Part shown: positions 3,453 to 26,790 of the stretch, in pieces
How the letters are laid out: each line of letters begins with the position of its first letter
How positions within the stretch are numbered: the first letter of the stretch is position 1
Assembly: GCA_031277715.1 (NCBI GenBank)
Contig: JAITLW010000325.1
Span: 1-35,946 of the forward strand
Source: Sphingobacterium sp.
GTDB lineage: Bacteria > Bacteroidota > Bacteroidia > Sphingobacteriales > Sphingobacteriaceae
DNA: 35,946 nt
Reading direction: 5' to 3'
Position numbers and translations under genes: made by a program
Notes under the pieces: generated by a model
The model's database searches: none
The model's input: the letters and a program-made list of their open reading frames with translations, nothing else
What the model was told of the DNA's origin: nothing

Positions 3453-3586
3453 AGCATTTCTGATAAGTTGCGGGTAGGAGCTTTCGCTATTTTGTTTCAG
3501 AAGTGAAGAGATACTTGGAGTTGTTGAGCGTATTTATGCCTGTTTTGCCTGTTTTGTTGAATAAAATTGCAATTTTCTTTTCAATA

Positions 3587-3609
3587 CAATTTAGTTTAAT
3601 TCTAAATAG
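3587..3609 (+). promoter_or_regulatory. Operator-like inverted repeat (site E), 9-5-9
   Basis: CAATTTAGT-TTAAT-TCTAAATAG; perfect ATTTAG-N7-CTAAAT core, 2 nt upstream of TATATTTG; resembles sites at 26965, 30503, 30539, 34525. Confidence 0.6.
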
Positions 3610-3611
3610 TG

Positions 3612-3619
3612 TATATTTG
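3612..3619 (+). promoter_or_regulatory. Bacteroidota -7 element TATATTTG
   Basis: Match to TAnnTTTG, 18 nt upstream of the ATG at 3638. Confidence 0.65.
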
Positions 3620-3637
3620 CATGATTTTCCACATATT

Positions 3638-6382
3638 ATGAAGAAAGTATTTCTCTCGGTTGCACTATGGAGCACCACATTATTAACGGGCCATCTGCTA
3701 GCCTCAACTAGTACGGCATATTTTTTTCAGCAACAGTCTTCAGTAGATATAAAGGGATTGGTTGTTTCTGAGGGACAACCTCTTGTAGGGGCTACCGTCA
3801 CCTTGGTCGAGTTAGGCTTGACTTTGTCTAGTGGTAAAGACGGGAAATTTGTTTTTTCGAAAGTACCTCAAGGAAGTTATACGCTAATAGTACAATACGC
3901 TGGAATGAAAGTACAGCAGGTAAAAGCCACTCTAGGTCAAGAGATAAAGGTTGAACTGGAAGAAAACTCTATTGCTATTGACGATGTTCAGGTAATTGGA
4001 CAGCGTTCAAAGGTAAAGGGAGCGACTTCTACTTTCATATCCCGACAGGCTATTGAACACCTACAGGCGACAAGTATTGCGGAGGTCCTACAGCTACTAC
4101 CTGGACAAGCTATCTATAATCCTTCTTTTTCGACTCTTACTACCCCAATGATTCGTCAGGGAGGAAGTGACCCAACAGGAAAAACTCACGATAATAAATC
4201 ACGGGGCGTAGCATCCCTTGGTACCTCTATTATTATTAATGGTGCGCAGTTGTCAAATAATGCGGATATGCAAGCCGTAAATACAGCGCAAGGTGGTGTA
4301 TTGTCTAGTTTTGATAATGCTTCTGGGAGAGGAACCGATCTGCGGCAGTTGACAGCAGACAATGTGGAGTCTATAGAGGTCATTCGTGGTATTCCTTCTG
4401 TCGAATATGGTGATTTGACATCGGGTGTGATTGATGTTAAGACAAAGGCAGCGGTACAGCCGTTACAGGCCAAATTCCGATTGAACCCAACATTAAAACA
4501 AGGTTGGGTTGGGCAAGGTTTTGCTGTAGGTAAGGATCAAGGGGCATTGTTTGTTGATGTAGATTACACTTATGCTGCTAATAATCAGATACAGACCAGC
4601 GAATCGTATAAACGTTTTAACACCTCTTTGCAGTATACCAATACTTTTGGAGCGAATCGAAATCTATATACCAATACAACTTTGAATTTTGGGGGGTATT
4701 ACGATGATAGTAAGATAGATCCCGATCTGGTAGTCAATCAGGTTATTAATCAATCAGAAAATTATGATCTGCGGTTCTCCACTAATGGACGATGGAATCT
4801 GGATAAGCGCTTTGCGCGGAATATAAATTACGTACTATCAGCTCAATTAGGATTTCAGAATGGTTTCCAGCAGATGATGAATAATGGTTCGCTGTTCGCT
4901 GTTTCGAATGCTTTGGTCGATGGTACTTATGAAGTCGACTTCTTACCATCTAGTTACCTGCAGCAGATTTATATTAAAGGGAAGCCCTTGAACCTACAGG
5001 CACGACTATCCGATAATTTTTATTTCTCTACAGGCGCAGCGCGGCATGCCATCACTGTAGGGGGGACGTATACTTTGGACAAGAATTTTGGTCAGGGCAA
5101 ATATTTCGCAGGAGATATGCCTCCTAAGAATAATTCGGGATTAGGGTTCAGGCCCCGTCGATTTGAGGATATTCCCGCACTGAATCAAATTGCCTTTTAT
5201 GCAGAAGATAAATTGGCAGTAGATGTGTTTGGAAGACCATTGGATATTGTTGCTGGTTTACGTTACGATTGGATACAGCCTTTCAGAGATGATGCTAAGA
5301 GTGCTTTTTCTCCTCGTATCAATGCGTCCTATGAACTATTTAAAGATTTTTCTATCCATGGTGGGTACGGATGGAGCGCTAAGGCGCCATCTCTGATATA
5401 TATGTATCCCGACCCGGTGTATCTGGATGTATTCAGTTTGAGTCATTATAAACAAGATCCAGCAGAAAGGCTTGCTTTGGTAACTACGCGGGTATTTGAT
5501 GCACAAAACCAGAATCTAGAGATGGCTAAGTCCAAAAAAATAGAGATTGGTGTAGACTATAAAAAATTCTCCATTACAGCTTATGATGAACGAATCGCTA
5601 ATGGATTGGATATGTACCAATATTATAATTTTACCAATGTACCCATCTATACTGTAGCTTCTCAACAACCAGGACAACGACCAGAATTGAGTGATGTAGT
5701 CAAAGACTCTTTATATGTAACAGATTATAACGTGCCGCGCAATAACGTTAACATCGTAAACAGAGGGATTGAATTTGATTTTGACTTTGGTAAAGTAAAA
5801 CCTTTACGTACATCATTTACCTTGAATGGAGCATACGCTTATACCAAATCGTTTGATAATAATCCATTCGTATATGCACGGCGTGTCCCTAACCAGCCAT
5901 ATAATAAATTGGGGGTTTATGAAGGTAGGGGGAAAGAATATACACGGTTCCTGACCACTTTGCGGGCTATTCATCAAATACCTGAAATTCGCCTCCTCAT
6001 CACCTTGACGGCTCAGACAATCTGGACAGATAAGGACAAGAATTTGAATTATACGTCTAGACCTTATGCCGTGATGGATATTGTTGAAGGCGGTGCTGGA
6101 GAGACGCGGATGTTGTCTGAACAGGAAATTGCTGCTATTTCTGAAACGTCGGGTTTATTCTTGCCTGTTGCAGAGTCTTATTATAGAACCGAATCCTGGA
6201 AGCCATTATGGCTATTCAACACTAAAGTGACAAAGGAGTTTGGAAAGAACTATGGTTTTTCGTTCTACGTGAATAATATTACCAATAACAGACCTTATCA
6301 ACGGAGTAAACGTAATCCAGATCAATTGGAGAAGCGAAATATCCCAGTGTTCTTTGGTAGTGAATTGAGTATCAAATTTTAA
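3638..6382 (+). CDS. TonB-dependent receptor with carboxypeptidase-like regulatory N-domain
   Basis: ORF 3503-6382; preferred start MKKVFLSVALWSTTLLTG at 3638. VDIKGLVVSEGQPLVGATVTLVE, plug motif VESIEVIRGIPSVEYGDLTSGVIDVKTK, C-terminal beta-barrel ending ELSIKF. Confidence 0.92.
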   Translation: MKKVFLSVALWSTTLLTGHLLASTSTAYFFQQQSSVDIKGLVVSEGQPLVGATVTLVELGLTLSSGKDGKFVFSKVPQGSYTLIVQYAGMKVQQVKATLGQEIKVELEENSIAIDDVQVIGQRSKVKGATSTFISRQAIEHLQATSIAEVLQLLPGQAIYNPSFSTLTTPMIRQGGSDPTGKTHDNKSRGVASLGTSIIINGAQLSNNADMQAVNTAQGGVLSSFDNASGRGTDLRQLTADNVESIEVIRGIPSVEYGDLTSGVIDVKTKAAVQPLQAKFRLNPTLKQGWVGQGFAVGKDQGALFVDVDYTYAANNQIQTSESYKRFNTSLQYTNTFGANRNLYTNTTLNFGGYYDDSKIDPDLVVNQVINQSENYDLRFSTNGRWNLDKRFARNINYVLSAQLGFQNGFQQMMNNGSLFAVSNALVDGTYEVDFLPSSYLQQIYIKGKPLNLQARLSDNFYFSTGAARHAITVGGTYTLDKNFGQGKYFAGDMPPKNNSGLGFRPRRFEDIPALNQIAFYAEDKLAVDVFGRPLDIVAGLRYDWIQPFRDDAKSAFSPRINASYELFKDFSIHGGYGWSAKAPSLIYMYPDPVYLDVFSLSHYKQDPAERLALVTTRVFDAQNQNLEMAKSKKIEIGVDYKKFSITAYDERIANGLDMYQYYNFTNVPIYTVASQQPGQRPELSDVVKDSLYVTDYNVPRNNVNIVNRGIEFDFDFGKVKPLRTSFTLNGAYAYTKSFDNNPFVYARRVPNQPYNKLGVYEGRGKEYTRFLTTLRAIHQIPEIRLLITLTAQTIWTDKDKNLNYTSRPYAVMDIVEGGAGETRMLSEQEIAAISETSGLFLPVAESYYRTESWKPLWLFNTKVTKEFGKNYGFSFYVNNITNNRPYQRSKRNPDQLEKRNIPVFFGSELSIKF

Positions 6383-6394
6383 GTGTTGCCGATA

Positions 6395-7597
6395 ATGAAA
6401 AAGATATATTTATTGATCCTGTCTGCCCTCGTTTTGGTGTTGGGTAGCTGTAGGAAGGATTTTGAACCAGTTACCACTGTGCAGCTTACATTGCAACTAG
6501 AGTTTCCAGATTCATTTGTCGATGGGAGTGTACCTAAGGGGGTAGAAGTGATGCTGCGCAATAATATTACAGGTGAATTGCTTAAAACAAAGACCGACGA
6601 TCAGGGAAAGGTAGTTAGCACTGTGATTCCCGGCACCTATACCGTGACTGCATCAAAAGCTTACAGCCCAGAGGAGACGTCCGAATTGTTAGGGAGCGAG
6701 GTAGAGATGTTTGTCAATGGAAATCTTTCGCCCGTTATCGTGAACGAGGAGAAAACAGTCTCCCTTAAATTGAAAAGTAGTAGAGCAGGGGGATTGGTCA
6801 TTAGAGAATTCTATTATAGTGCGGTTACGTCCTATCTTTATGATGGCTTTACAGAAATCTACAATAATTCCAACGAACCTATTCGAATTGATAGTCTGTA
6901 TATTGGTTCTACACGTGCCGGAGCGACTAATAATACGTCTGCAACTGGACCGTATAATTTCTTAACGGCCTATCCTGAGGAGGTCTATTTGAATCAGGTC
7001 TTTATGGTTCCTTCTACAGGTCAGCCGAGATTTCTTGAACCTGGAAAATCTTTGGTAATTGCTATTAGTGGATTGAATCATAAATCCGATCCAAATGGCA
7101 ATAAAAACTCCCCTGTTGATTTGGGGGATGCAGATTTTGAAGTTTTTTGGGATTACCCTACAGGTCGAGATATAGATTATCCGGAGGTTCCTAACATGAT
7201 ACATGCGTTTGCAGGTAGTACCGCTGGATTTGATTGGAATATCGGCATTAATGGTGCTGGTATGGTGATTTTTAATACCAAGGACTTCGATAAACTGCCT
7301 GTCCGATTTGAACCAGATGCTAAAACTGCTGGAACAACACAGTATATAGGTATCCCTGTTAGTGATATTATCGATGGTGTGGACGCGACAGCGAATGCTA
7401 CGATATTGCTAAGTAATAAGCGTTTGCCTGTGTCTGTAGATGCAAGCATGACTACAGCAGAGGTTCCCTTGAAAGGTCGGTCGGTAAGACGTAAAGTCAA
7501 AACGGTAATCAATGGACGCACTATTTTTGTCGATACAAACAATTCATCTGCAGATTTTGAAGTTAATCTAACACCCTCACCTCGTAAATGGAATTAA
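6395..7597 (+). CDS. Lipoprotein, DUF4876-like
   Basis: Start MKKIYLLILSALVLVLGSCRKDF (lipobox LGSC); VIREFYYSAV...DGFTEIYNNSNEPIRIDSLYIG pattern typical of DUF4876 proteins next to TonB receptors. Confidence 0.75.
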   Translation: MKKIYLLILSALVLVLGSCRKDFEPVTTVQLTLQLEFPDSFVDGSVPKGVEVMLRNNITGELLKTKTDDQGKVVSTVIPGTYTVTASKAYSPEETSELLGSEVEMFVNGNLSPVIVNEEKTVSLKLKSSRAGGLVIREFYYSAVTSYLYDGFTEIYNNSNEPIRIDSLYIGSTRAGATNNTSATGPYNFLTAYPEEVYLNQVFMVPSTGQPRFLEPGKSLVIAISGLNHKSDPNGNKNSPVDLGDADFEVFWDYPTGRDIDYPEVPNMIHAFAGSTAGFDWNIGINGAGMVIFNTKDFDKLPVRFEPDAKTAGTTQYIGIPVSDIIDGVDATANATILLSNKRLPVSVDASMTTAEVPLKGRSVRRKVKTVINGRTIFVDTNNSSADFEVNLTPSPRKWN

Positions 7598-9156
7598 CAA
7601 TGAACAAGAAATTAATAATAAGTATTCTAATAGCGAGTAGTGTTGGAGCGTTGCGTGCACAGACTACAGCTTTTGAACTGGAGCGGTTTAAAATACAGGA
7701 AGTTGGGCTGAAAAGTGCCAATGCCTCTTTATTGAATACCAATGATTTTCGAAATTTAGGAAATACCAGTGTATTCTATAATCAGAAAAGTGGTGACTTT
7801 AAACATCCTTTACTAGCTTCGGAAAGTCGTTTTGGTGGTTTCGAAACGGAACGTTTTCAGGAATTAAAAAATTGGAAGCTATACGGTCGTTTTGGATTGG
7901 ACTTTGGAAAGGATAAAAAAGTGAGTAATACCACACAGTTGGACCCCTTACGGTTGAATCCTTTTATCGTTGTTGACTCGTTGAGCGGAGACTGGAATAA
8001 ACAGAATTATGCACTCGAAACGAAGATTGCTTCTCCAATTCTGAACGAACGGATTGCCTTTGGACTGGGGTTTGATTATAAGGTGTCTACTGGAGCTAGA
8101 CAGCGGGATCCTAGGCCGCTGAGTACCAGTAATAATCTGGTGTTGACTCCTGCGGTAACCTATTTTTTGAATGAACAAAATGCGATAGCTCTTAATGGAC
8201 GGTATGAATACTTTGTTGAAGATTTAAGTGTATCTAATGTTAATAAGACTACCGTACATAATATGTATAAGCTTATCGGGGTTGGTGAATATGTAGGAAG
8301 TAGCCCAACTTTTATCGGTACTAGCGAGATTTCGAGAAGATATGTTGGAAATAAGTTTGGAGGAGCTTTGCAATATGTTTTTAAAGGTGAATCGTTTCGC
8401 TTCTTTGGAGAAGGTTTTGTGAATCATAATGCCGAGCGTGCTAAAGATGGGAGCACCAATCCTCAAGAAGCAGGTAAGCATGAATATTGGGAATACGGGG
8501 CAAATGTTGAAGCGGTCTATAACCAAGATCTTTCTATGCACAGGCTTGGATTTTCCTGGAACCAGAAAAATGTCGATAATACCGAATACCACCAATATCA
8601 AGATGTTGATACCAGACAGTTTGTTACGTTGTTTTCAGCGGTGTTTAACACAAACCTAGTGACCAATAGTAACGTTTCCTATGCATTTACGAAGTGGAAA
8701 GGTGAGGCAATAAATTGGGATTTAGGACTGAATGTTATGTATGCGGGTTGGGATAATAAGTACGCGATCAACCAGAGTCAGCAAACTGTTGATCGTCTGG
8801 GCTATGATCTGAGATTCAAGAAGTATTTCCAATTTCGTGATGCTTCTGTTTTTGCGGTAGAGTTAAGTCCAGGGTATAGTCATCATATCGATTCCGAATT
8901 TAGGTATGATGAAAAGAGCTATTCCACAAATTTTGTGGCTAAGGATATTCTGTACCCTACGAATGCCTATTTGGTTGCCGACTATTTCAATGTTGGGGCA
9001 AGTGTACAGTATACGTTTAAGCCATCTAAAAATAATACCCAGTTATATATCAAGCTGTCGGAAAACTATATCAAGCCGACAGGGAGTAATGAATACTTTA
9101 CCAAGTCACAATACCGTTTGAATTGGCAGGTTGCAGTAGGACTGTTGACATTTTAG
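7588..9156 (+). CDS. Outer-membrane beta-barrel protein, DUF6850-like
   Basis: Signal peptide MNKKLIISILIASSVGALRAQ (alternative start 7600), repeated amphipathic beta-strands, position after DUF4876 gene. Confidence 0.7.
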   Translation: MELTMNKKLIISILIASSVGALRAQTTAFELERFKIQEVGLKSANASLLNTNDFRNLGNTSVFYNQKSGDFKHPLLASESRFGGFETERFQELKNWKLYGRFGLDFGKDKKVSNTTQLDPLRLNPFIVVDSLSGDWNKQNYALETKIASPILNERIAFGLGFDYKVSTGARQRDPRPLSTSNNLVLTPAVTYFLNEQNAIALNGRYEYFVEDLSVSNVNKTTVHNMYKLIGVGEYVGSSPTFIGTSEISRRYVGNKFGGALQYVFKGESFRFFGEGFVNHNAERAKDGSTNPQEAGKHEYWEYGANVEAVYNQDLSMHRLGFSWNQKNVDNTEYHQYQDVDTRQFVTLFSAVFNTNLVTNSNVSYAFTKWKGEAINWDLGLNVMYAGWDNKYAINQSQQTVDRLGYDLRFKKYFQFRDASVFAVELSPGYSHHIDSEFRYDEKSYSTNFVAKDILYPTNAYLVADYFNVGASVQYTFKPSKNNTQLYIKLSENYIKPTGSNEYFTKSQYRLNWQVAVGLLTF

Positions 9157-9191
9157 GTGGCGTTGTTTATTTTTTTAAATTTGAATTCGAT

Positions 9192-11411
9192 ATGTATAAT
9201 ATAAAAAGGGTTGTAGGAGCGCTATTGTTGTCAGGAAGCTTGATGGCTAATGCGCAGGAGATAGAGAAGCCAAGTGTTAAATCAAAAACTTCTTTCGCAA
9301 TTGTCGTTGATAAAGCGACTTACGAAGCGGTAGGTCCCGAGATTCGTGCCTACAAGCAGGTTGTGGAAAAAGATGGGCTGGGGACTTATATCATCTATGA
9401 TGATTGGCAGTCACCAGAAAAGATTCGTCAAATATTGCAAAAACTACATCAGGATAAAGGTGCCCCATTGGAAGGAGCCGTGTTGGTTGGTAATATTCCG
9501 GTGCCTATGATCCGTGACGCCCAGTTCTTGACTTCGGCATTTAAAATGAATCAAAAAATAAGATGGGACAAATCTTCAGTGCCTTCCGATAGGTATTATG
9601 ATGATTTTGACCTTAAGTTTGATTTCTTGAAACAGGATACCGCAAAAGGTAAGGAACACTACTTCTATTATAGTTTACGGCCAGATTCAAAACAATACAT
9701 TGATATGGACATCTATTCAGCTCGTATCAAACCTCCCGTAGCCGCTGGTGAACAGATGGTTCCTAAGATTAAAGACTACTTGAATAAATTGATCACGCTA
9801 CGGTCAAAAAGTTACCCATTGAATGATATGCTGGTTTCTTATGGACATGGGTATAATTCGAATTCGGTCAATGCCGTCTCGGGCGAAGCTCTAGCGTTGA
9901 AATCACAATTGCCACATCTTTTTAGACCAGGAGGGTCTATCAAGTTTCTCAATTTTAGAAATGCTGATTTCATGAAGTTTAATCTATTGTCCGAACTGAA
10001 AAGAGATGGGTTGGATTTTGCCTATATGACAGGGCATGGTACACCTACATTGCAGTTGATTAACGGCTATCCGCTCGTGTCCAATCCGCAACCTTCAATG
10101 GAGAATGTTGCCCGTTATCTACGGTCAAAAATGCGTGATGCCAAAGACGATGGAAGAGATGTAGAGAAAACAAAAGAAGGATTTAAGAACTCTTTGGGGG
10201 TATCAGATAAATGGTTTGAGAATATATTTGATGCCAAAGTAGCAGAAGATGATTCTATTTTCAATGCAAATCTAGATGTGCAGATTGAGGATGTGCGCAA
10301 TGGAGGTATTCAAGCAAAGCTTGTCTATTTGAATTCTTGTTTGACAGGTTCTTTTCATTTAGATAATTATATCGCCGGATATTATCCTTTCTCCAATAAC
10401 GAAAACGTAGCAGCTGTTGCGAATTCTGTTGGTGTCTTGCAAGATTTATGGCCTGCAGAAATGATGGGCTTGTTGAACAAGGGGTATCGTGTGGGCAACT
10501 GGCTTAAGCATATCGCTTATCTAGAGACGCATGTGCTTGGAGATCCGACTTTCCACTTCGATTCTAAAGATAGCTATACCCTCAACGAGGCGGTGATGCT
10601 CAATAAAGATGTCACCTATTGGAAGAATGCATTGAAGGAAAATGATGCTGACGTACAGAGTTTAGCTTTAGTCAAATTGGTAGCCTTAATGCCGGAGAAG
10701 GAAAGTGCACCACTATTAAGAGATATTTATTTCAGTTCCCCGTTTGAGACCACGCGGATGGAAGCATTCCAGCTGTTACGTCAATTTGAGAATAAGGAAT
10801 ATATTGAGGTCTTACACGCCGCAAAAAATGATCCTTATGAGTATATCCGTCGTCGTGCAATATATGATCTAACGGATTTTGGATCAAATGAATTTGTTAA
10901 AGACCTGATCCAATTCTATGTTTCTGATCCGCATTCTGAGCGGGTTGCTTATCGAGTGAGATGGGCATTGCAGTTTATGGATCCAGTATTAGCGAAACAG
11001 GAAGTGAATACCCTAATCCGGGAGAACAAAGCAGTTCATAATGGTGTTGCTCTGGCAGACAAATTGGATAAAGACCTGGATTACTACGGAAAAAAACGCG
11101 ATGATTTGATAAAATCCCTGCAAAATGAATCGCTTTCTGAGAAAGAAAAACTTGGAGAGGTTACTACTTTGCGTTTATACCGGCACCATGCCGCCGTACC
11201 TGAGGTAATCACATTGATAAAGGATGAAAAAACACCCGAAAGCATTCGTGTAGCAGCGTTGGAGGCATTGGGCTGGTTTACCTTGTCTTATCAGAGAGAT
11301 AATATCATCAAAGGTTGCGATGAAGTACTGCTTTCCGATGCTCCACAAGGTGTAAAGGATGAGGCATTGAAGACGAAGAATAGAATTAGGGAAGCAACGC
11401 ACAAGATCTAA
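9192..11411 (+). CDS. Secreted caspase-fold (peptidase C25/gingipain-like) protein with HEAT-like C-terminal repeats
   Basis: Signal peptide MYNIKRVVGALLLSGSLMANAQ; EGAVLVGNIPVPM, PSDRYYDD, FAYMTGHGTPT (His-Gly), VYLNSCLTGSF (Cys), LGDPTFHF; alpha-helical repeats from about residue 450. Confidence 0.75.
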   Translation: MYNIKRVVGALLLSGSLMANAQEIEKPSVKSKTSFAIVVDKATYEAVGPEIRAYKQVVEKDGLGTYIIYDDWQSPEKIRQILQKLHQDKGAPLEGAVLVGNIPVPMIRDAQFLTSAFKMNQKIRWDKSSVPSDRYYDDFDLKFDFLKQDTAKGKEHYFYYSLRPDSKQYIDMDIYSARIKPPVAAGEQMVPKIKDYLNKLITLRSKSYPLNDMLVSYGHGYNSNSVNAVSGEALALKSQLPHLFRPGGSIKFLNFRNADFMKFNLLSELKRDGLDFAYMTGHGTPTLQLINGYPLVSNPQPSMENVARYLRSKMRDAKDDGRDVEKTKEGFKNSLGVSDKWFENIFDAKVAEDDSIFNANLDVQIEDVRNGGIQAKLVYLNSCLTGSFHLDNYIAGYYPFSNNENVAAVANSVGVLQDLWPAEMMGLLNKGYRVGNWLKHIAYLETHVLGDPTFHFDSKDSYTLNEAVMLNKDVTYWKNALKENDADVQSLALVKLVALMPEKESAPLLRDIYFSSPFETTRMEAFQLLRQFENKEYIEVLHAAKNDPYEYIRRRAIYDLTDFGSNEFVKDLIQFYVSDPHSERVAYRVRWALQFMDPVLAKQEVNTLIRENKAVHNGVALADKLDKDLDYYGKKRDDLIKSLQNESLSEKEKLGEVTTLRLYRHHAAVPEVITLIKDEKTPESIRVAALEALGWFTLSYQRDNIIKGCDEVLLSDAPQGVKDEALKTKNRIREATHKI

Positions 11412-11998: not shown

Positions 11999-12604
11999 TT
12001 AATGCTGATGTGCCTCAAGCGGAGGTGTAATCATGATATGGGCTTTATAGGTTCCTTCATCCATCAGCCAAGGCATTCCTAAATTGTTGTGCTGATTAGA
12101 AAGACCGAGGTCCGCCGCTTTGGCGAATGGCACATAGATTACGTATCTTCTTTTAGCATCTTTAATCTCTCCTGTTTCCAAATTTACATCTTTAGCTGCA
12201 CCCCAATAACCGTACAATGTGGATGGCGTCTGAGGTATAGACAGTTTACCCTCTTTAAATTCCTGTTCACGGATTTTATCTCTTTCTTTACGTTTACCCT
12301 GTGCTATCAGTTCGCGTCCCCGAGCCATCAAAGGCTCTAAACTCACCGGATAACAATAGGCGTAATACACCGACATCTTGTAGTCTGGTGCCAAACAGAT
12401 ATAGCCATTGCTCCCTTCTCGAAGCGTAACGAAGTTTCCTTCTTGGTCATATCCATATACCTTCGCTCCCTCTCTAAATTCGGCTGGAGCGGCCTGTACC
12501 GCAATTTTGATTTGAATTTCGGAAGCTAAAATTTTCTTGTCTTGTGCATGGATGTTGCCTATACCCGTCCAGAGTAATAGTACAGCGATTATCAATTTGT
12601 TCAT
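11999..12604 (-). CDS. Secreted protein of unknown function
   Basis: Start MNKLIIAVLLLWTGIGNIHAQ at 12604 (ORF extends to 12619); no recognised domain; ends PPLEAHQH. Confidence 0.75.
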   Translation of the reverse strand: MNKLIIAVLLLWTGIGNIHAQDKKILASEIQIKIAVQAAPAEFREGAKVYGYDQEGNFVTLREGSNGYICLAPDYKMSVYYAYCYPVSLEPLMARGRELIAQGKRKERDKIREQEFKEGKLSIPQTPSTLYGYWGAAKDVNLETGEIKDAKRRYVIYVPFAKAADLGLSNQHNNLGMPWLMDEGTYKAHIMITPPLEAHQH

Positions 12605-12627
12605 TCTATAGTTAATCATTTAAAAAC

Positions 12628-14529
12628 TCAATTTAATCTATTTATCGTTCGTTCTACTTCAATTTTCAATTCTTTGGTGGCCTTGGACTTTAATAGGGTT
12701 TGAAAGTTTGCCAAGATTGTCTCTCTTTTCCAAGAATGGCTAAAGGCCCCTAAGGCGGTAACGAATGCAACCCGTAGCTCAATAGGTTCCTGTTTATCAT
12801 TTATTATGTCGAGTATGCCATCTATACCAGGGTGGTAATTGTGGGTTGCCATGAGTTGAACCAGGCGAATACGTTCTTCTTTAGGCCTAGTTTTGTCTTT
12901 TATCTGCTCCAGTGAGCTTTCAAGAATAGCAGGTTGTGTATATTGACTTTTTATGGATGCTATTTCTGTCTCTTGATGTAATCGATTACTGTTGTGCAAA
13001 GCCGTTGTCAGTGATTTTTCAACAAGGTTCCTGTCAAATACTTCAAATGTTGATTTTATATGCTGTTGGACTCGTCGTCTGGATTTGTCATTCATCCATG
13101 TTTGTGTCAAGGGGCCTATTAAAACGGTATCTCCTATTATTCCAGCATATAGCGTAGCCTGTTGCGCTATGAGCTCATATTCATCACTGAGCCCTGTCGA
13201 TACAGCGTTTGTAAAATGTTTATCCTTGTGGATCGATAAAGCATGTAATGCCTGTAAGCGCACAGTACGATAAGGGGAGTTCTCAAAATACGGCATTATG
13301 GCTTCGGATGAGCTTGTATTGCTGGAGCTAAGTTTGAACAGCGCTAGCGTTTGGTAGATCGCATTGTCTTTCTTCAGCAATGACCGCCAATATTCGGGGT
13401 TATCTTCTTGGCTGAGTTTTGCATTTAGATTTTCCGTATCCTTATTCGCAAAATGAAACGTCGGATCTCCAAATAAATGACGTTCCAGGGTTAAACCCAA
13501 ATTGTGAACATGCCCCCAGCGTAGTCCGTACGATAATAGGCCGCTAAAGTTTATGTCCGTAGGGGCTGGGCGAGTATTCGCCTGTACCGCTATGGTATTG
13601 CCTGAATTAAAGATATATTGCCTGGCGGTGTACTCCACCATGTTATCGAAAGCGCCTGCCGGTTGGGTGTCGAAGATAAGGTATAAAGGATAGGTGTCCA
13701 GTTTTTTAGTCGGAGTGGGTTGTGTACTAGAGCTACTGTCCGAACGAATTAAAAACAAATCAACCTCTTTACGTTGTAGCTCATTTAAGATTGAGGTGTT
13801 ATTGTCCGTTTTAAAAGCTAATTGCTGTAAACCGTTAACCTGCTTTACTAAAAAAGGGAAGTATTCCCTGTAAGCTTTGAGTTCATCTTTCCAAGCGGTT
13901 GTACACCCATTATAGTAATTCCTATTTGTGGAACTAACGACATGGTCTAAGACATTGTCTCGGCGTGTGCGTGTTACTTTTAAAAGGTAATTATTAATTG
14001 CTTCATATGACTCATCATATTTTAAAGTAGGGTAGTAGATTCGTGCAGAGTAAAAGCTTGGATTGATGTCCTGCGGACTGCTCTCCTGTAATTTATAATA
14101 GTGGAGGTTGCTTTGGTTTGCATCTTGTTTGATGTATTCAAAATTGAGATGAAGGTCGTCATAAAAGCGGTCCGATGGAGTGGCAGTCACATGGCCTGAA
14201 AAATCATAAACCATAGGAATCGGAATGTTGCCAATAAAAACAGCGCCTTCCAGAGATTGTTTGGTTTTATGCAGCTTTATAAGCTCTTTTTTAATATCGT
14301 CAGGCCGATTGAATACCCCATGAATGATATAGGTCGGTATACCATCGCTCTCCACCGTTTTTTGATACGCTTTTAGGGCATCTTCGGTATGGGTATAGGT
14401 ATCTTGATCCACGACTATTGCAAAAGCCTTGTTATTCGAGGCCAAGGTAGATTTTTCTATCTTTAGCTGTCCATATGCGATGGTTGCTGTAGAGAGCAGG
14501 ACGAGTAGAGCGAGCAGAGACTTTTGCAT
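12628..14529 (-). CDS. C25-like caspase-fold/HEAT paralog, predicted catalytically inactive
   Basis: Homologous to the 9192-11411 product (FAIVVDQDTYTHTEDALKAYQKTVESDGIPTYII, PSDRFYDDLHLNFEYIKQD, LFGDPTFHF, C-terminal LRVAFVTALGAFSHSWKRETI); Cys position is FDTQPAGAF, His position LIRSDSSS. Confidence 0.8.
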   Translation of the reverse strand: MQKSLLALLVLLSTATIAYGQLKIEKSTLASNNKAFAIVVDQDTYTHTEDALKAYQKTVESDGIPTYIIHGVFNRPDDIKKELIKLHKTKQSLEGAVFIGNIPIPMVYDFSGHVTATPSDRFYDDLHLNFEYIKQDANQSNLHYYKLQESSPQDINPSFYSARIYYPTLKYDESYEAINNYLLKVTRTRRDNVLDHVVSSTNRNYYNGCTTAWKDELKAYREYFPFLVKQVNGLQQLAFKTDNNTSILNELQRKEVDLFLIRSDSSSSTQPTPTKKLDTYPLYLIFDTQPAGAFDNMVEYTARQYIFNSGNTIAVQANTRPAPTDINFSGLLSYGLRWGHVHNLGLTLERHLFGDPTFHFANKDTENLNAKLSQEDNPEYWRSLLKKDNAIYQTLALFKLSSSNTSSSEAIMPYFENSPYRTVRLQALHALSIHKDKHFTNAVSTGLSDEYELIAQQATLYAGIIGDTVLIGPLTQTWMNDKSRRRVQQHIKSTFEVFDRNLVEKSLTTALHNSNRLHQETEIASIKSQYTQPAILESSLEQIKDKTRPKEERIRLVQLMATHNYHPGIDGILDIINDKQEPIELRVAFVTALGAFSHSWKRETILANFQTLLKSKATKELKIEVERTINRLN

Positions 14530-16439
14530 TAGTTTATATTATTTAAAGTTCGACGGGCTTCGTCACGTAGCCTTTTTGAATGTCTGGTGTCTACCATTAA
14601 CTCTTTACAGGCCGCGATAATCTCCTGTTTACGGTACGAATCCCGAAAACAGGATAGGGATTCGAGCATGGCAATCCGTAAGTCTATAGGCATCTTGCTG
14701 TTGCGGACGAATTCAAGATATCGGGTTACAGATGGATGATAGTGTATCGTTCGTAAATCCGTTATTCCCTGTCGTTGACTATCTGGCTTAGTATCAAAAA
14801 TGTTCTTGTCAATCTCTAAATAGATCCCTGTAAACTGAGTTTCATAAAACTTTTCTTTTTCCTTAACCTTGTCAACAAAACTGTTGGTCGTCATAAAACG
14901 TTGCTCAGCGATGTTTTTGATTAAATCTTTATTGAATACATAGAGTGCCATATTTATAGCGGATAGTGTGCCCTCCGCGTGTTGATTGTCTATATAGGCA
15001 TCTATTAGAGCAGGGATGAATATTGGATCTCCGATACGTGCGATGGCATTGATTACTTCTAGGCGGATGGACTCATCACTGTCTTTAATGCCTTTTGCAA
15101 ATAGAGCGGATCTTGTTTCCCCTTCTTGTTGGTCGGCTAGATGTATGCAGGTATAACGTACTGTAGTATAGTTGGAATTGTCGTAGTATTGGGTGATCAG
15201 TTTAGGCAACCCGTCATAATTGTTAAGGGAGAGTTGGTTCAATAAGAAACTTTGGCCCTCTGGAGATTTAGCTTTTGACAAAGCCTCTACTAGTTTTTTA
15301 TTGTTCTTTTCGTGTACAAATCTGCTTAATGTATCTGTAGAACTAATAGAAAAGGTAAATGTCGGGTCGCCGAAAAGGTGTGATTCAAGTGTATTATTCA
15401 GCTTGGCCCATTGACCGATATTCAGGCCCATGCCTAGAGATCCCATCAGGTATGTGGGATGACGATGTAGAGCTGGTTGTACGGTATTGGCCAATGCAGC
15501 TAATGCCGCACCTTTACTGAATGTAAACTGGCCTGCGTTATATTGCGCTTCGCTAAAATTTCCTATGGGGTTGTCCGCAAAAATACTCAACGTAACATTC
15601 GGGTGGATTGTGGAGACATCAGGGAGAGGATATTGACGAATAAAGGCTATATCTAAATCATGTCTTCTAAGCTGATTAATGGTTTCATCTTGTAGCAGAC
15701 GTTGTTTGTCATCCTTGTAATTTTGGAACTGTGTGCTTGCTTTTGAAATCTGAGGAAATTGCTCTTCTAGAAAGTAGGACTGGGATGACCAAGTAGATAG
15801 TGGTTGATACGCGACATAAGACATGACCTGGTCAATACTGTTCTTGGATGCTCTGGCCTGTATTGCTTTGTTTAGATAAGTGGAGATCTGTTGATATTTG
15901 TCGTTTTTTTTGTCCGTAACAGTAAGGGGCTTGAGACGTGCAGAATAAATTGTTGACTTGATGCGGTTGGGAGAAGATAGTCCCAAATTGTAAAAAAATA
16001 ACTGCGGGTTCGTTTTGCTCTGCTCCAGAAAATCGAAAGTCAATTCGAAATCATCATAAAAGCGGTCCGATGGAATAGCTGTTGATACGTTGGTAAGATG
16101 CTGTGCTTTAAGCACCATCGGAACTGGTATATCTCCAATAAAGATAACACCTTCTATTTTGGAGGTTTCATATAGCTTCTGCAACTCTTTTTTTAGTTGT
16201 TCCGGGGTTTTCCAATCATGGTAAACAATCAATGCGGGTAGCTGTGTTGATTCAATAACATCGCGGTAAGAGAGAATCTCTTTTTGACATTTTTCAAAGG
16301 TGCTCCTGTCTGTAATGATAGCGAAAGAACGGTCTGTTATTTCGAGGGTAGCAGGTATGATTTCCTGGGCCCTAACTGTATTCAAGATAGATAGATACGA
16401 GACTAAAAGAATGAGGAACAGTTTGTGTGAAGCCTTCAT
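14529..16439 (-). CDS. C25-like caspase-fold/HEAT paralog, predicted catalytically inactive
   Basis: Start MKASHKLFLILLVSYLSILNTVRAQ at 16439; shared EGVIFIGDIPVPM, PSDRFYDDFELTFDFLEQ, LFGDPTFTF; Cys position FADNPIGNF, His position FIRQYPLP. TAATG overlap with the next gene. Confidence 0.8.
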   Translation of the reverse strand: MKASHKLFLILLVSYLSILNTVRAQEIIPATLEITDRSFAIITDRSTFEKCQKEILSYRDVIESTQLPALIVYHDWKTPEQLKKELQKLYETSKIEGVIFIGDIPVPMVLKAQHLTNVSTAIPSDRFYDDFELTFDFLEQSKTNPQLFFYNLGLSSPNRIKSTIYSARLKPLTVTDKKNDKYQQISTYLNKAIQARASKNSIDQVMSYVAYQPLSTWSSQSYFLEEQFPQISKASTQFQNYKDDKQRLLQDETINQLRRHDLDIAFIRQYPLPDVSTIHPNVTLSIFADNPIGNFSEAQYNAGQFTFSKGAALAALANTVQPALHRHPTYLMGSLGMGLNIGQWAKLNNTLESHLFGDPTFTFSISSTDTLSRFVHEKNNKKLVEALSKAKSPEGQSFLLNQLSLNNYDGLPKLITQYYDNSNYTTVRYTCIHLADQQEGETRSALFAKGIKDSDESIRLEVINAIARIGDPIFIPALIDAYIDNQHAEGTLSAINMALYVFNKDLIKNIAEQRFMTTNSFVDKVKEKEKFYETQFTGIYLEIDKNIFDTKPDSQRQGITDLRTIHYHPSVTRYLEFVRNSKMPIDLRIAMLESLSCFRDSYRKQEIIAACKELMVDTRHSKRLRDEARRTLNNIN

Positions 16440-16575
16440 AGTAAAAATTAAGACTAAAGGTAAAACCAGAAATAACTGAAAATCGGCAAATATCAGAAGC
16501 AAATATAAGCTGAAATTCTTAATAGTGGGTCGGAACAAACCCACTAAAAACTAATTCTATTGTCAAATTATGTCT

Positions 16576-24867: not shown

Positions 24868-26790
24868 ATGGCAAGATTAAATTTATTAGAGGAAACACGC
24901 TTTGAAAAAGTACCTGTAACGGTATATCCAAGTCAAAGTGATGCTTCTATTCATGTTGCAAATCGTATCGCTTCACTGATTAAAGAAAAGCAAGCAAAAG
25001 GCGAGAAAGCTGTACTAGGTCTAGCAACAGGAGCAACACCTGTTAAAGTTTATCAAGAACTTGTTCGTCAACACAAAGAAGAGGGTTTGAGCTTCCAGAA
25101 TGTGGTAACCTTCAATTTGGATGAGTACTTCCCGATGCAGCCTACTGCTGATCAGAGTTACGTTACATTCATGAAGAAAAATCTCTTCGACCTGATTGAT
25201 ATTCCTGCAGAAAATATTAATATTCCTGATGGGACAATAGATATCAATCAAGTACAGGCGTACTGTGAAGCTTATGAGCAGAAGATTTCAGCGCTTGGAG
25301 GATTGGATATTCAATTGTTAGGGATTGGACGTACAGGACACATCGGGTTTAATGAACCTGGATCTGCTCCAAACTCGGGTACACGCCTAGTGACATTGGA
25401 TGATTTGACACGCCGTGATGCATCTCGTGGATTTGGAGGTAAAGAATACGTGCCTACGAAAGCAATTACTATGGGGGTCGGAACAATCTTTAAAGCAAAG
25501 GAGATTGTCCTGATGGCATGGAATGAGAATAAGGCGGAGATCGTTAAGAAAGCCGTCGAAGGAGAGATGTCTCCAGAGATTCCTGCGACTTACTTACAGT
25601 TGTCTAATAATGTCGAGTTTATATTGGATGAAGGTGCCGCGTCATTGCTAACCCGATTCGATACGCCATGGTTGGCACACGATGTTGTATGGACCGAGTT
25701 TTTGACTAAAAAGGCAGTGGTCTGGTTGTCTCTAAAATTGAACAAAGCAATTTTAAAGCTGACTGATGAAGACTATAACAATAATGGTATGGCAGAGCTT
25801 GTCACTGAACAAGGTCCGGCATATAATATTAATATCAAAATCTTTAACGAGTTACAGCGGACAATAACTGGATGGCCAGGGGGAAAGCCTAATGTGGACG
25901 ATACAAACCGTCCAGAGCGAGCTGAGCCTGCTCATAAGAATGCGATCCTTTTCTCGCCACACCCGGATGATGACGTGATCTCCATGGGAGGAACTTTCAT
26001 CCGTCTAGCGGATCAGGGACATAACGTACATGTTGCTTATCAAACATCTGGAAATACTGCTGTTTGGGATGATGATGTGTTGCGTTATTTGGAATTCGTA
26101 CAAGACTTTGCGGTAGCAATTGATGACGATCAAGGTATTACAAGTAAGATTTACACAGAGGCAAGAGAGTTTTTCAAAACGAAGAAGCCGAATCAGGTCG
26201 ATCCTGAAATAATCCGTACTGTAAAGGGATTAATTCGTAAGGGTGAGGCTATTGCCGGGGCTCGTTTTGTGGGCTTGCCAGATGAGAATATTCATTTCCA
26301 GAACCTACCATTTTACGATAGAACTAAATTCTCTAAAGAGGTGTCTTTTGAAGATGATATCGTACAAACGATGGAATTACTTCGTAAAGTAAAACCACAG
26401 CAGGTTTTTGCGGCTGGAGATTTTGCTGATCCACATGGAACGCACAAGGTTTGTTTTGACATTCTTTTAGAGGCTTTATTGCGTCTACGTAAAACAGATG
26501 AGTGGACAAAAGACTGTTGGTTGTGGTTGTACCGTGGTGCATGGCATGAGTATCCAATCCATGAGATTGAAATGGCTATTCCGCTTTCTCCACAAGAGGT
26601 AAAACGTAAGCGTTTAGCAATCTTTAAACACCAGTCACAGAAGGATGTTCCTGTATTCCCTGGAGATGATCCTCGTGAATTCTGGGTGCGTGCTGAAGAC
26701 CGTACAAGCGATACAGCAGCTTTATATCATAAGCTGGGGCTTGCAGACTATGAAGCTATAGAAGCATTCGTACGTTGGAAGTTTGATTAA
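24868..26790 (+). CDS. nagB: Glucosamine-6-phosphate deaminase fused to a C-terminal LmbE/PIG-L deacetylase-like domain
   Basis: 640 aa; GLATGATPVKVYQELVR, FNLDEYFPM, LGIGRTGHIGFNEPGS (NagB) then LFSPHPDDDVISMGGTFIRLADQGHNVHVAY and DPHGTH (LmbE). Confidence 0.95.
   Translation: MARLNLLEETRFEKVPVTVYPSQSDASIHVANRIASLIKEKQAKGEKAVLGLATGATPVKVYQELVRQHKEEGLSFQNVVTFNLDEYFPMQPTADQSYVTFMKKNLFDLIDIPAENINIPDGTIDINQVQAYCEAYEQKISALGGLDIQLLGIGRTGHIGFNEPGSAPNSGTRLVTLDDLTRRDASRGFGGKEYVPTKAITMGVGTIFKAKEIVLMAWNENKAEIVKKAVEGEMSPEIPATYLQLSNNVEFILDEGAASLLTRFDTPWLAHDVVWTEFLTKKAVVWLSLKLNKAILKLTDEDYNNNGMAELVTEQGPAYNINIKIFNELQRTITGWPGGKPNVDDTNRPERAEPAHKNAILFSPHPDDDVISMGGTFIRLADQGHNVHVAYQTSGNTAVWDDDVLRYLEFVQDFAVAIDDDQGITSKIYTEAREFFKTKKPNQVDPEIIRTVKGLIRKGEAIAGARFVGLPDENIHFQNLPFYDRTKFSKEVSFEDDIVQTMELLRKVKPQQVFAAGDFADPHGTHKVCFDILLEALLRLRKTDEWTKDCWLWLYRGAWHEYPIHEIEMAIPLSPQEVKRKRLAIFKHQSQKDVPVFPGDDPREFWVRAEDRTSDTAALYHKLGLADYEAIEAFVRWKFD

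Follow-up and report, generated by a model that had tools for sequence, protein, structure and literature searches.

A gingipain-like fold joined to a HEAT solenoid in a TonB-dependent import cassette of Sphingobacterium: a candidate peptidase for imported cargo

The window analyzed here, a 35,946-bp stretch of Sphingobacterium sp. DNA (contig JAITLW010000325.1), encodes on its plus strand (9192 to 11411) a 739-residue exported protein in which a domain remotely related to peptidase family C25 is followed by a HEAT-like solenoid. According to the open reading frame (ORF) and its translation, family alignments, and an AlphaFold2 model, the predicted gingipain-like fold and the remote kinship with C25 are well supported, as is the coupling of the gene to a TonB-dependent receptor cassette. 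The presence of a C25/HEAT gene in a conserved TonB operon of Bacteroidota and adjacent phyla suggests uptake of some cargo by these bacteria and its cleavage by a caspase-fold enzyme. The initial annotation could name no function for the protein; we infer both a proteolytic activity and a substrate, and the range of functions is now reduced to processing linked to import, probably under iron limitation. We see about an even chance that the product is a periplasmic cysteine endopeptidase that processes the cargo of the cassette.

Within this plus-strand gene, the first 21 codons specify a Sec signal peptide without a lipobox (MYNIKRVVGALLLSGSLMANA; 9192 to 9254), as expected of an exported protein. 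The catalytic region (residues 33 to 456; 9288 to 10559), as delimited by hhalign to a C25 profile and by the Foldseek match to structure 1cvr, comprises an N-terminal and a caspase-like subdomain. All the landmarks previously listed for it are found in the translation (GNIPVPM, PSDRYYDD, FAYMTGHGTPT, VYLNSCLTGSF, and LGDPTFHF), and the two catalytic-position residues are encoded exactly where they had been placed, His282 (followed by Gly283) at 10035 to 10037 and Cys383 at 10338 to 10340, with a spacing of 101. The HEAT-like repeats proposed for the C terminus (residues 464 to 734; 10581 to 11393) were recovered in a Pfam search as three stretches matching PF13646 (HEAT_2; E value of 2.6e-13), the sole Pfam family reported for the product, and they are also apparent from the helices of the model and from conservation. 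Five residues of this solenoid (R522, D547, E550, R554, and R584) are invariant in 114 active-type copies of the family, drawn from Bacteroidota, Ignavibacteria, and Neomarinimicrobiota. In agreement with the reported absence of a type IX secretion system (T9SS) C-terminal domain, the product had no sorting-domain match in Pfam or NCBIfam; a PHROGs search gave no match.

An AlphaFold2 model built on a 65-sequence alignment (mean pLDDT of 94.3, pTM of 0.92) returned gingipain RgpB (1cvr) as its top PDB match in a Foldseek search (E value of 4.1e-7, TM score of 0.54 normalized to the length of RgpB, 12% identity), so that the C25/gingipain-type fold suggested by the initial annotation is borne out by prediction. 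The remaining leading PDB matches were HEAT or armadillo solenoids. A first model, based on 13 sequences (pLDDT of 78), had given HEAT/armadillo-type proteins only among the listed PDB matches and was superseded by the 65-sequence model; sequence-only searches of the PDB likewise returned essentially HEAT-type proteins and no gingipain. By strand order in the model, His282 and Cys383 come after strands 276 to 280 and 377 to 381, respectively, and are thus placed at active-site positions as in RgpB, whose dyad residues sit at the ends of strands 3 and 4 of the caspase fold (PMC4357240).

For a comparison independent of the model, 23 PF01364 domains taken from other Bacteroidota, most of them belonging to large PorU-sized proteins, were combined into a C25 profile. 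With the insert between His and Cys removed, the catalytic region aligned by hhalign with the whole profile (global E value of 2e-8, probability of 94%), with the GD, SDxYY, GRI, HG, Cys, and GDP motifs in register, and in 30 column-shuffled controls the E value was always at least 0.075. Removal of the insert was needed for the His and Cys parts to align; when it was kept, the match was weaker and local alignment covered the N-terminal half only (local E value of 0.0017, global E value of 4e-5). The C25-type assignment did not extend to the Pfam Peptidase_C25 model itself (PF01364), which had no match in the product and was matched weakly by 9 of the 65 family members (best E value of 3.2e-4). 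We therefore describe the protein as C25-like and not as a Pfam C25 member.

C25 peptidases are characterized by Arg or Lys specificity at P1, with an acidic residue in S1 (Asp163 in RgpB). With members of this family (gingipain RgpB and PorU, clan CD), the C25/HEAT protein shares the N-terminal and caspase-like subdomains, a strand followed by His-Gly and another followed by Cys, and the GD, SDxYY, GRI, and C-terminal GDP motifs in the same order. However, it falls below the PF01364 threshold, its family carries a helical insert of about 70 residues between His and Cys, a HEAT solenoid replaces the Ig-like domain, and both a large prodomain and a T9SS tail are missing. A further likeness is a Gln-x(2)-Trp sequence near the position of Gln282 and Trp284 of RgpB, which partly hold the P1 arginine (PMC4357240). 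The loop Q417-D418-L419-W420 (10440 to 10451), a candidate S1 lid by its conservation, may be the equivalent of that RgpB loop.

Conservation across the active-type copies argues that these landmarks are more than chance, as His, Gly, and Cys are retained in all 114. H282, G283, C383, Q417, and D418 are each present in 114/114, and W420 is present in 96. The His-Cys interval amounts to 92 to 102 residues in every active-type copy and to 99 in the product, and the helical segment that it contains (residues 291 to 376; 10062 to 10319) was modeled with block pLDDT values above 90. The initial annotation had put this spacing about 75 residues above that of two neighboring paralogs, which is accurate (18 to 23 residues in the neighbors, or about 76 to 81 fewer), but had taken it for a distinctive insertion of the active-looking copy. 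Given that the insert occurs in all active-type copies, it is instead an ancestral trait of the family, which the neighbors lost and the active copy did not gain.

The two neighbors are encoded on the minus strand. In the family alignment, paralog 1 (12628 to 14529) has Asp in place of His and Gln in place of Cys, and paralog 2 (14529 to 16544) has Tyr and Asn at these positions. Both also lack G283, Q417, and the insert, and both keep the structural motif residues D133, R134, Y136, D137, D275, and D451. Neither gene has internal stops, and pairwise dN/dS values of 0.09 to 0.21 and 0.06 to 0.13, compared with 0.04 to 0.09 for the active gene, indicate purifying selection under weaker constraint; judged by these sequence comparisons, the neighbors are decayed yet functional pseudoenzymes. 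Among 78 loci that represent the best 80 of 501 relatives, such dead copies were confined to the S. tabacisoli/yanglingense/faecale/paucimobilis group, where they occur in five genomes, including that of the window. Since the paralogs remain under purifying selection without a dyad (dN/dS of 0.06 to 0.21), the scaffold has noncatalytic uses, and the active-type protein might itself be a caspase-fold binding protein that keeps its dyad for another reason. We consider this the least probable of the explanations weighed here, as none of the 114 active-type copies departs from His, Gly, Cys, and Gln417, and the paralogs have lost these residues together with the insert, as would be expected under catalytic constraint.

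The paralogs likely form a minus-strand operon with a gene for an exported 206-residue protein without a Pfam family (11999 to 12619, minus strand). This protein behaves as a cassette accessory, as it was found in 26 of the 78 C25/HEAT cassette loci and had no match among the ORFs of fetched loci that carry the other cassette genes without a C25/HEAT gene. It is a candidate substrate, partner, or inhibitor.

The placement of the C25/HEAT gene at the end of a TonB-receptor operon, already proposed, was confirmed, as it closes a compact cluster of four genes on the same strand (3503 to 11411). The cluster starts with a TonB-dependent receptor carrying a CarboxypepD_reg domain (3638 to 6382, plus strand, ORF listed from 3503; PF00593, PF07715, and PF13715), followed by a DUF4876 lipoprotein with a lipobox-like start, SCRKDFE (6395 to 7597, plus strand, ORF listed from 6383; PF16215, E value of 1.5e-33), and by a DUF6850 protein (7588 to 9156, plus strand; PF21012, E value of 7e-112). 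The latter is a probable outer-membrane barrel that ends in Phe, and 60 of 73 homologs have F or Y as their last residue. The 501 relatives were found by scanning species genomes, and the 78 loci given by the best 80 belong to Bacteroidota, Ignavibacteria, and Candidatus Neomarinimicrobiota. The full cassette, i.e., TonB receptor, DUF4876, DUF6850, and one to three C25/HEAT genes, is present in 71 of these 78 loci, six of the seven incomplete ones being located on contig fragments no longer than about 13 kb, and the C25/HEAT gene immediately follows DUF6850 on the same strand in 58. Many Bacteroidales carry three tandem active copies with about 33% mutual identity. Across 249 genomes of the phylum, a full-length copy was found in 6 and DUF6850 in 22, including all of these 6, a co-occurrence with a P value of about 2e-7 when calculated by hand with phylogenetic kinship ignored; DUF6850 occurred without a full-length C25/HEAT copy in 16.

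Trios of receptor, DUF4876, and DUF6850 genes also exist without the peptidase gene, in the same and in other genomes, and the enzyme is thus not essential to import as such. Downstream of these trios lie other genes, in four loci one for a MauG-type dihaem cytochrome c peroxidase (PF03150), which suggests a swappable periplasmic enzyme. In four other trios, the gene that follows encodes a member of a related, lipoprotein-like family (about 300 residues) with no Pfam match. In two loci with Ignavibacteria-type cassettes, a YCF48/BNR-repeat protein of about 760 residues is encoded between DUF6850 and the C25/HEAT gene, and one of these two proteins shows a T9SS tail. No relevant paper was found for DUF6850, for C25 combined with HEAT, or for the names BT1936/BT1937.

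PF01364 had no match in the genome from which the window derives (88% complete) or in the other tested genome of the genus, and hence no PorU was found. A signal peptide combined with the lack of a lipobox, of a T9SS tail, and of a detectable PorU points to a periplasmic location for the C25/HEAT protein, as far as sequence features can tell. The signal peptide would also suit a surface or extracellular protease that digests environmental protein for import of the fragments, as gingipains do. Such a role is improbable, because a protein with no T9SS tail, no PorU in its genome, and no lipobox (missing by a simple pattern in 110 of the 114 active-type copies) has no known means of crossing the outer membrane.

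In the mechanism that we favor, the TonB receptor, together with the DUF4876 lipoprotein, would capture and import a polypeptide or a peptide-bound ligand, and DUF6850 would assist within the outer membrane. Docking of the cargo or a partner would then fall to the HEAT solenoid, and the His282/Cys383 dyad, possibly gated by the helical segment between both residues, would cleave the cargo and free a nutrient, probably iron. FusC and PqqL are iron-regulated periplasmic proteases associated with TonB-dependent transporters, described for Proteobacteria in a text that does not mention Bacteroidetes (PMC6793856). The C25/HEAT protein, as a putative periplasmic protease whose gene is linked to that of a TonB receptor in an iron-responsive setting, resembles FusC and PqqL, and import-coupled proteolysis is therefore favored here over maturation, surface digestion, regulation, and a noncatalytic role. 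The Fus and YddA-PqqL systems (PMC6793856) and the C25/HEAT cassette have in common a TonB-dependent receptor and an exported protease in one cluster (a protease by fold and dyad in our case), as well as expression under iron limitation, which for the cassette has been reported at a locus with matching gene content. Fus-type import is further defined by the uptake of an intact iron protein and its cleavage by the protease. They differ in that the peptidase fold is C25-like here and M16 there, in the DUF4876 and DUF6850 partners, and in their occurrence in the FCB group and in Proteobacteria, respectively. The cassette showed neither a Fus-like TonB (FusB) nor a transporter of the inner membrane. 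By analogy, the best explanation is that the C25/HEAT cassette would be the FCB-group counterpart of Fus/PqqL protease-associated import.

A gene order fixed beside outer-membrane proteins could also reflect a maturation protease that trims or assembles the surface components of the cassette itself (TonB receptor, DUF4876, and DUF6850) or a partner such as the 206-residue protein, as PorU does for T9SS cargo. The aligned C25 relatives are indeed large PorU-like proteins, and among the loci compared the 206-residue protein was seen only with C25/HEAT cassettes. This is the strongest of the alternatives but still an unlikely one, as trios that occur without the protease do not need it and as three divergent active copies per cassette (about 33% identity) fit varied substrates better than a single maturation site. 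Regulation deserves less credit than a surface protease. A protease cleaving a signaling protein upon receptor occupancy, and so controlling expression of the uptake operon, would be in keeping with the high selectivity of many clan CD enzymes and with a HEAT solenoid serving as a docking platform through its invariant R522, D547, and E550. However, the cassette contains neither a sigma/anti-sigma pair nor a receptor signaling (STN) domain, and many Bacteroidales have three copies per locus.

The link to iron in import-coupled proteolysis comes from published expression data. In B. theta, BT1933-39, which lists a HEAT repeat domain-containing protein, a DUF4876 protein, and a TonB receptor, is upregulated 3.5- to 7.4-fold in low iron, and in P. 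gingivalis, PG1019-22 (DUF4876 and TonB receptor) is upregulated 20.8- to 214.5-fold as part of the iron stimulon (PMC10434189). The cassette of the window shares the TonB receptor and DUF4876 with both loci and the HEAT repeat protein with BT1933-39, which is a locus of matching composition recognized via its printed annotation and not its sequence. For these DUF4876 operons, PMC10434189 gives genes only, with no mention of C25 or caspase.

Upstream of the receptor, 48 bases before its start, lies an inverted repeat, TTTAG-N7-CTAAA (3590 to 3606), the arms of which are kept across Sphingobacterium loci while the spacer varies. The repeat recurs at 30542 to 30558, ahead of another TonB operon of the window, and the two could represent a shared metal-responsive operator. 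Genome-wide, 13 exact sites were counted compared with 21 for a reversed control; given this lack of enrichment, the reading as an iron operator is kept as a lead only. A classical Fur box (TGATAATNATTATCA) was also considered and rejected, as it showed no excess over shuffles upstream of the receptors.

Polypeptide import followed by periplasmic proteolysis is already known in Proteobacteria with M16 proteases. A broader proposal, which we advance tentatively and to which we give less than even chances as a whole, is that protease-coupled TonB import exists in the FCB group as a class of its own, with a gingipain-fold HEAT peptidase that would cleave a polypeptide after import and so release iron. 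In this view, the receptor-DUF4876-DUF6850 core would take alternative periplasmic enzymes, either the C25/HEAT peptidase or the MauG-type dihaem peroxidase, and in one Sphingobacterium clade the dead paralog pair and the 206-residue exported protein would act as regulators or decoys. If true, protease-coupled import would extend to a major group, the Bacteroidota, with gut commensals in which low iron induces a locus of matching composition, and gingipain-fold enzymes would gain a T9SS-independent role. At present, the genes of the C25/HEAT cassette are concealed behind "HEAT repeat" and DUF names.

Elsewhere in the window, the second TonB operon (30587 to 35944) encodes a TonB receptor, a lipoprotein, and a PepSY_TM protein in a row and resembles the Xus siderophore system in architecture only, with an AraC regulator encoded divergently at 29545 to 30534. 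At 24868 to 26790, glucosamine-6-phosphate isomerase and PIG-L deacetylase domains are fused in one 640-residue protein.
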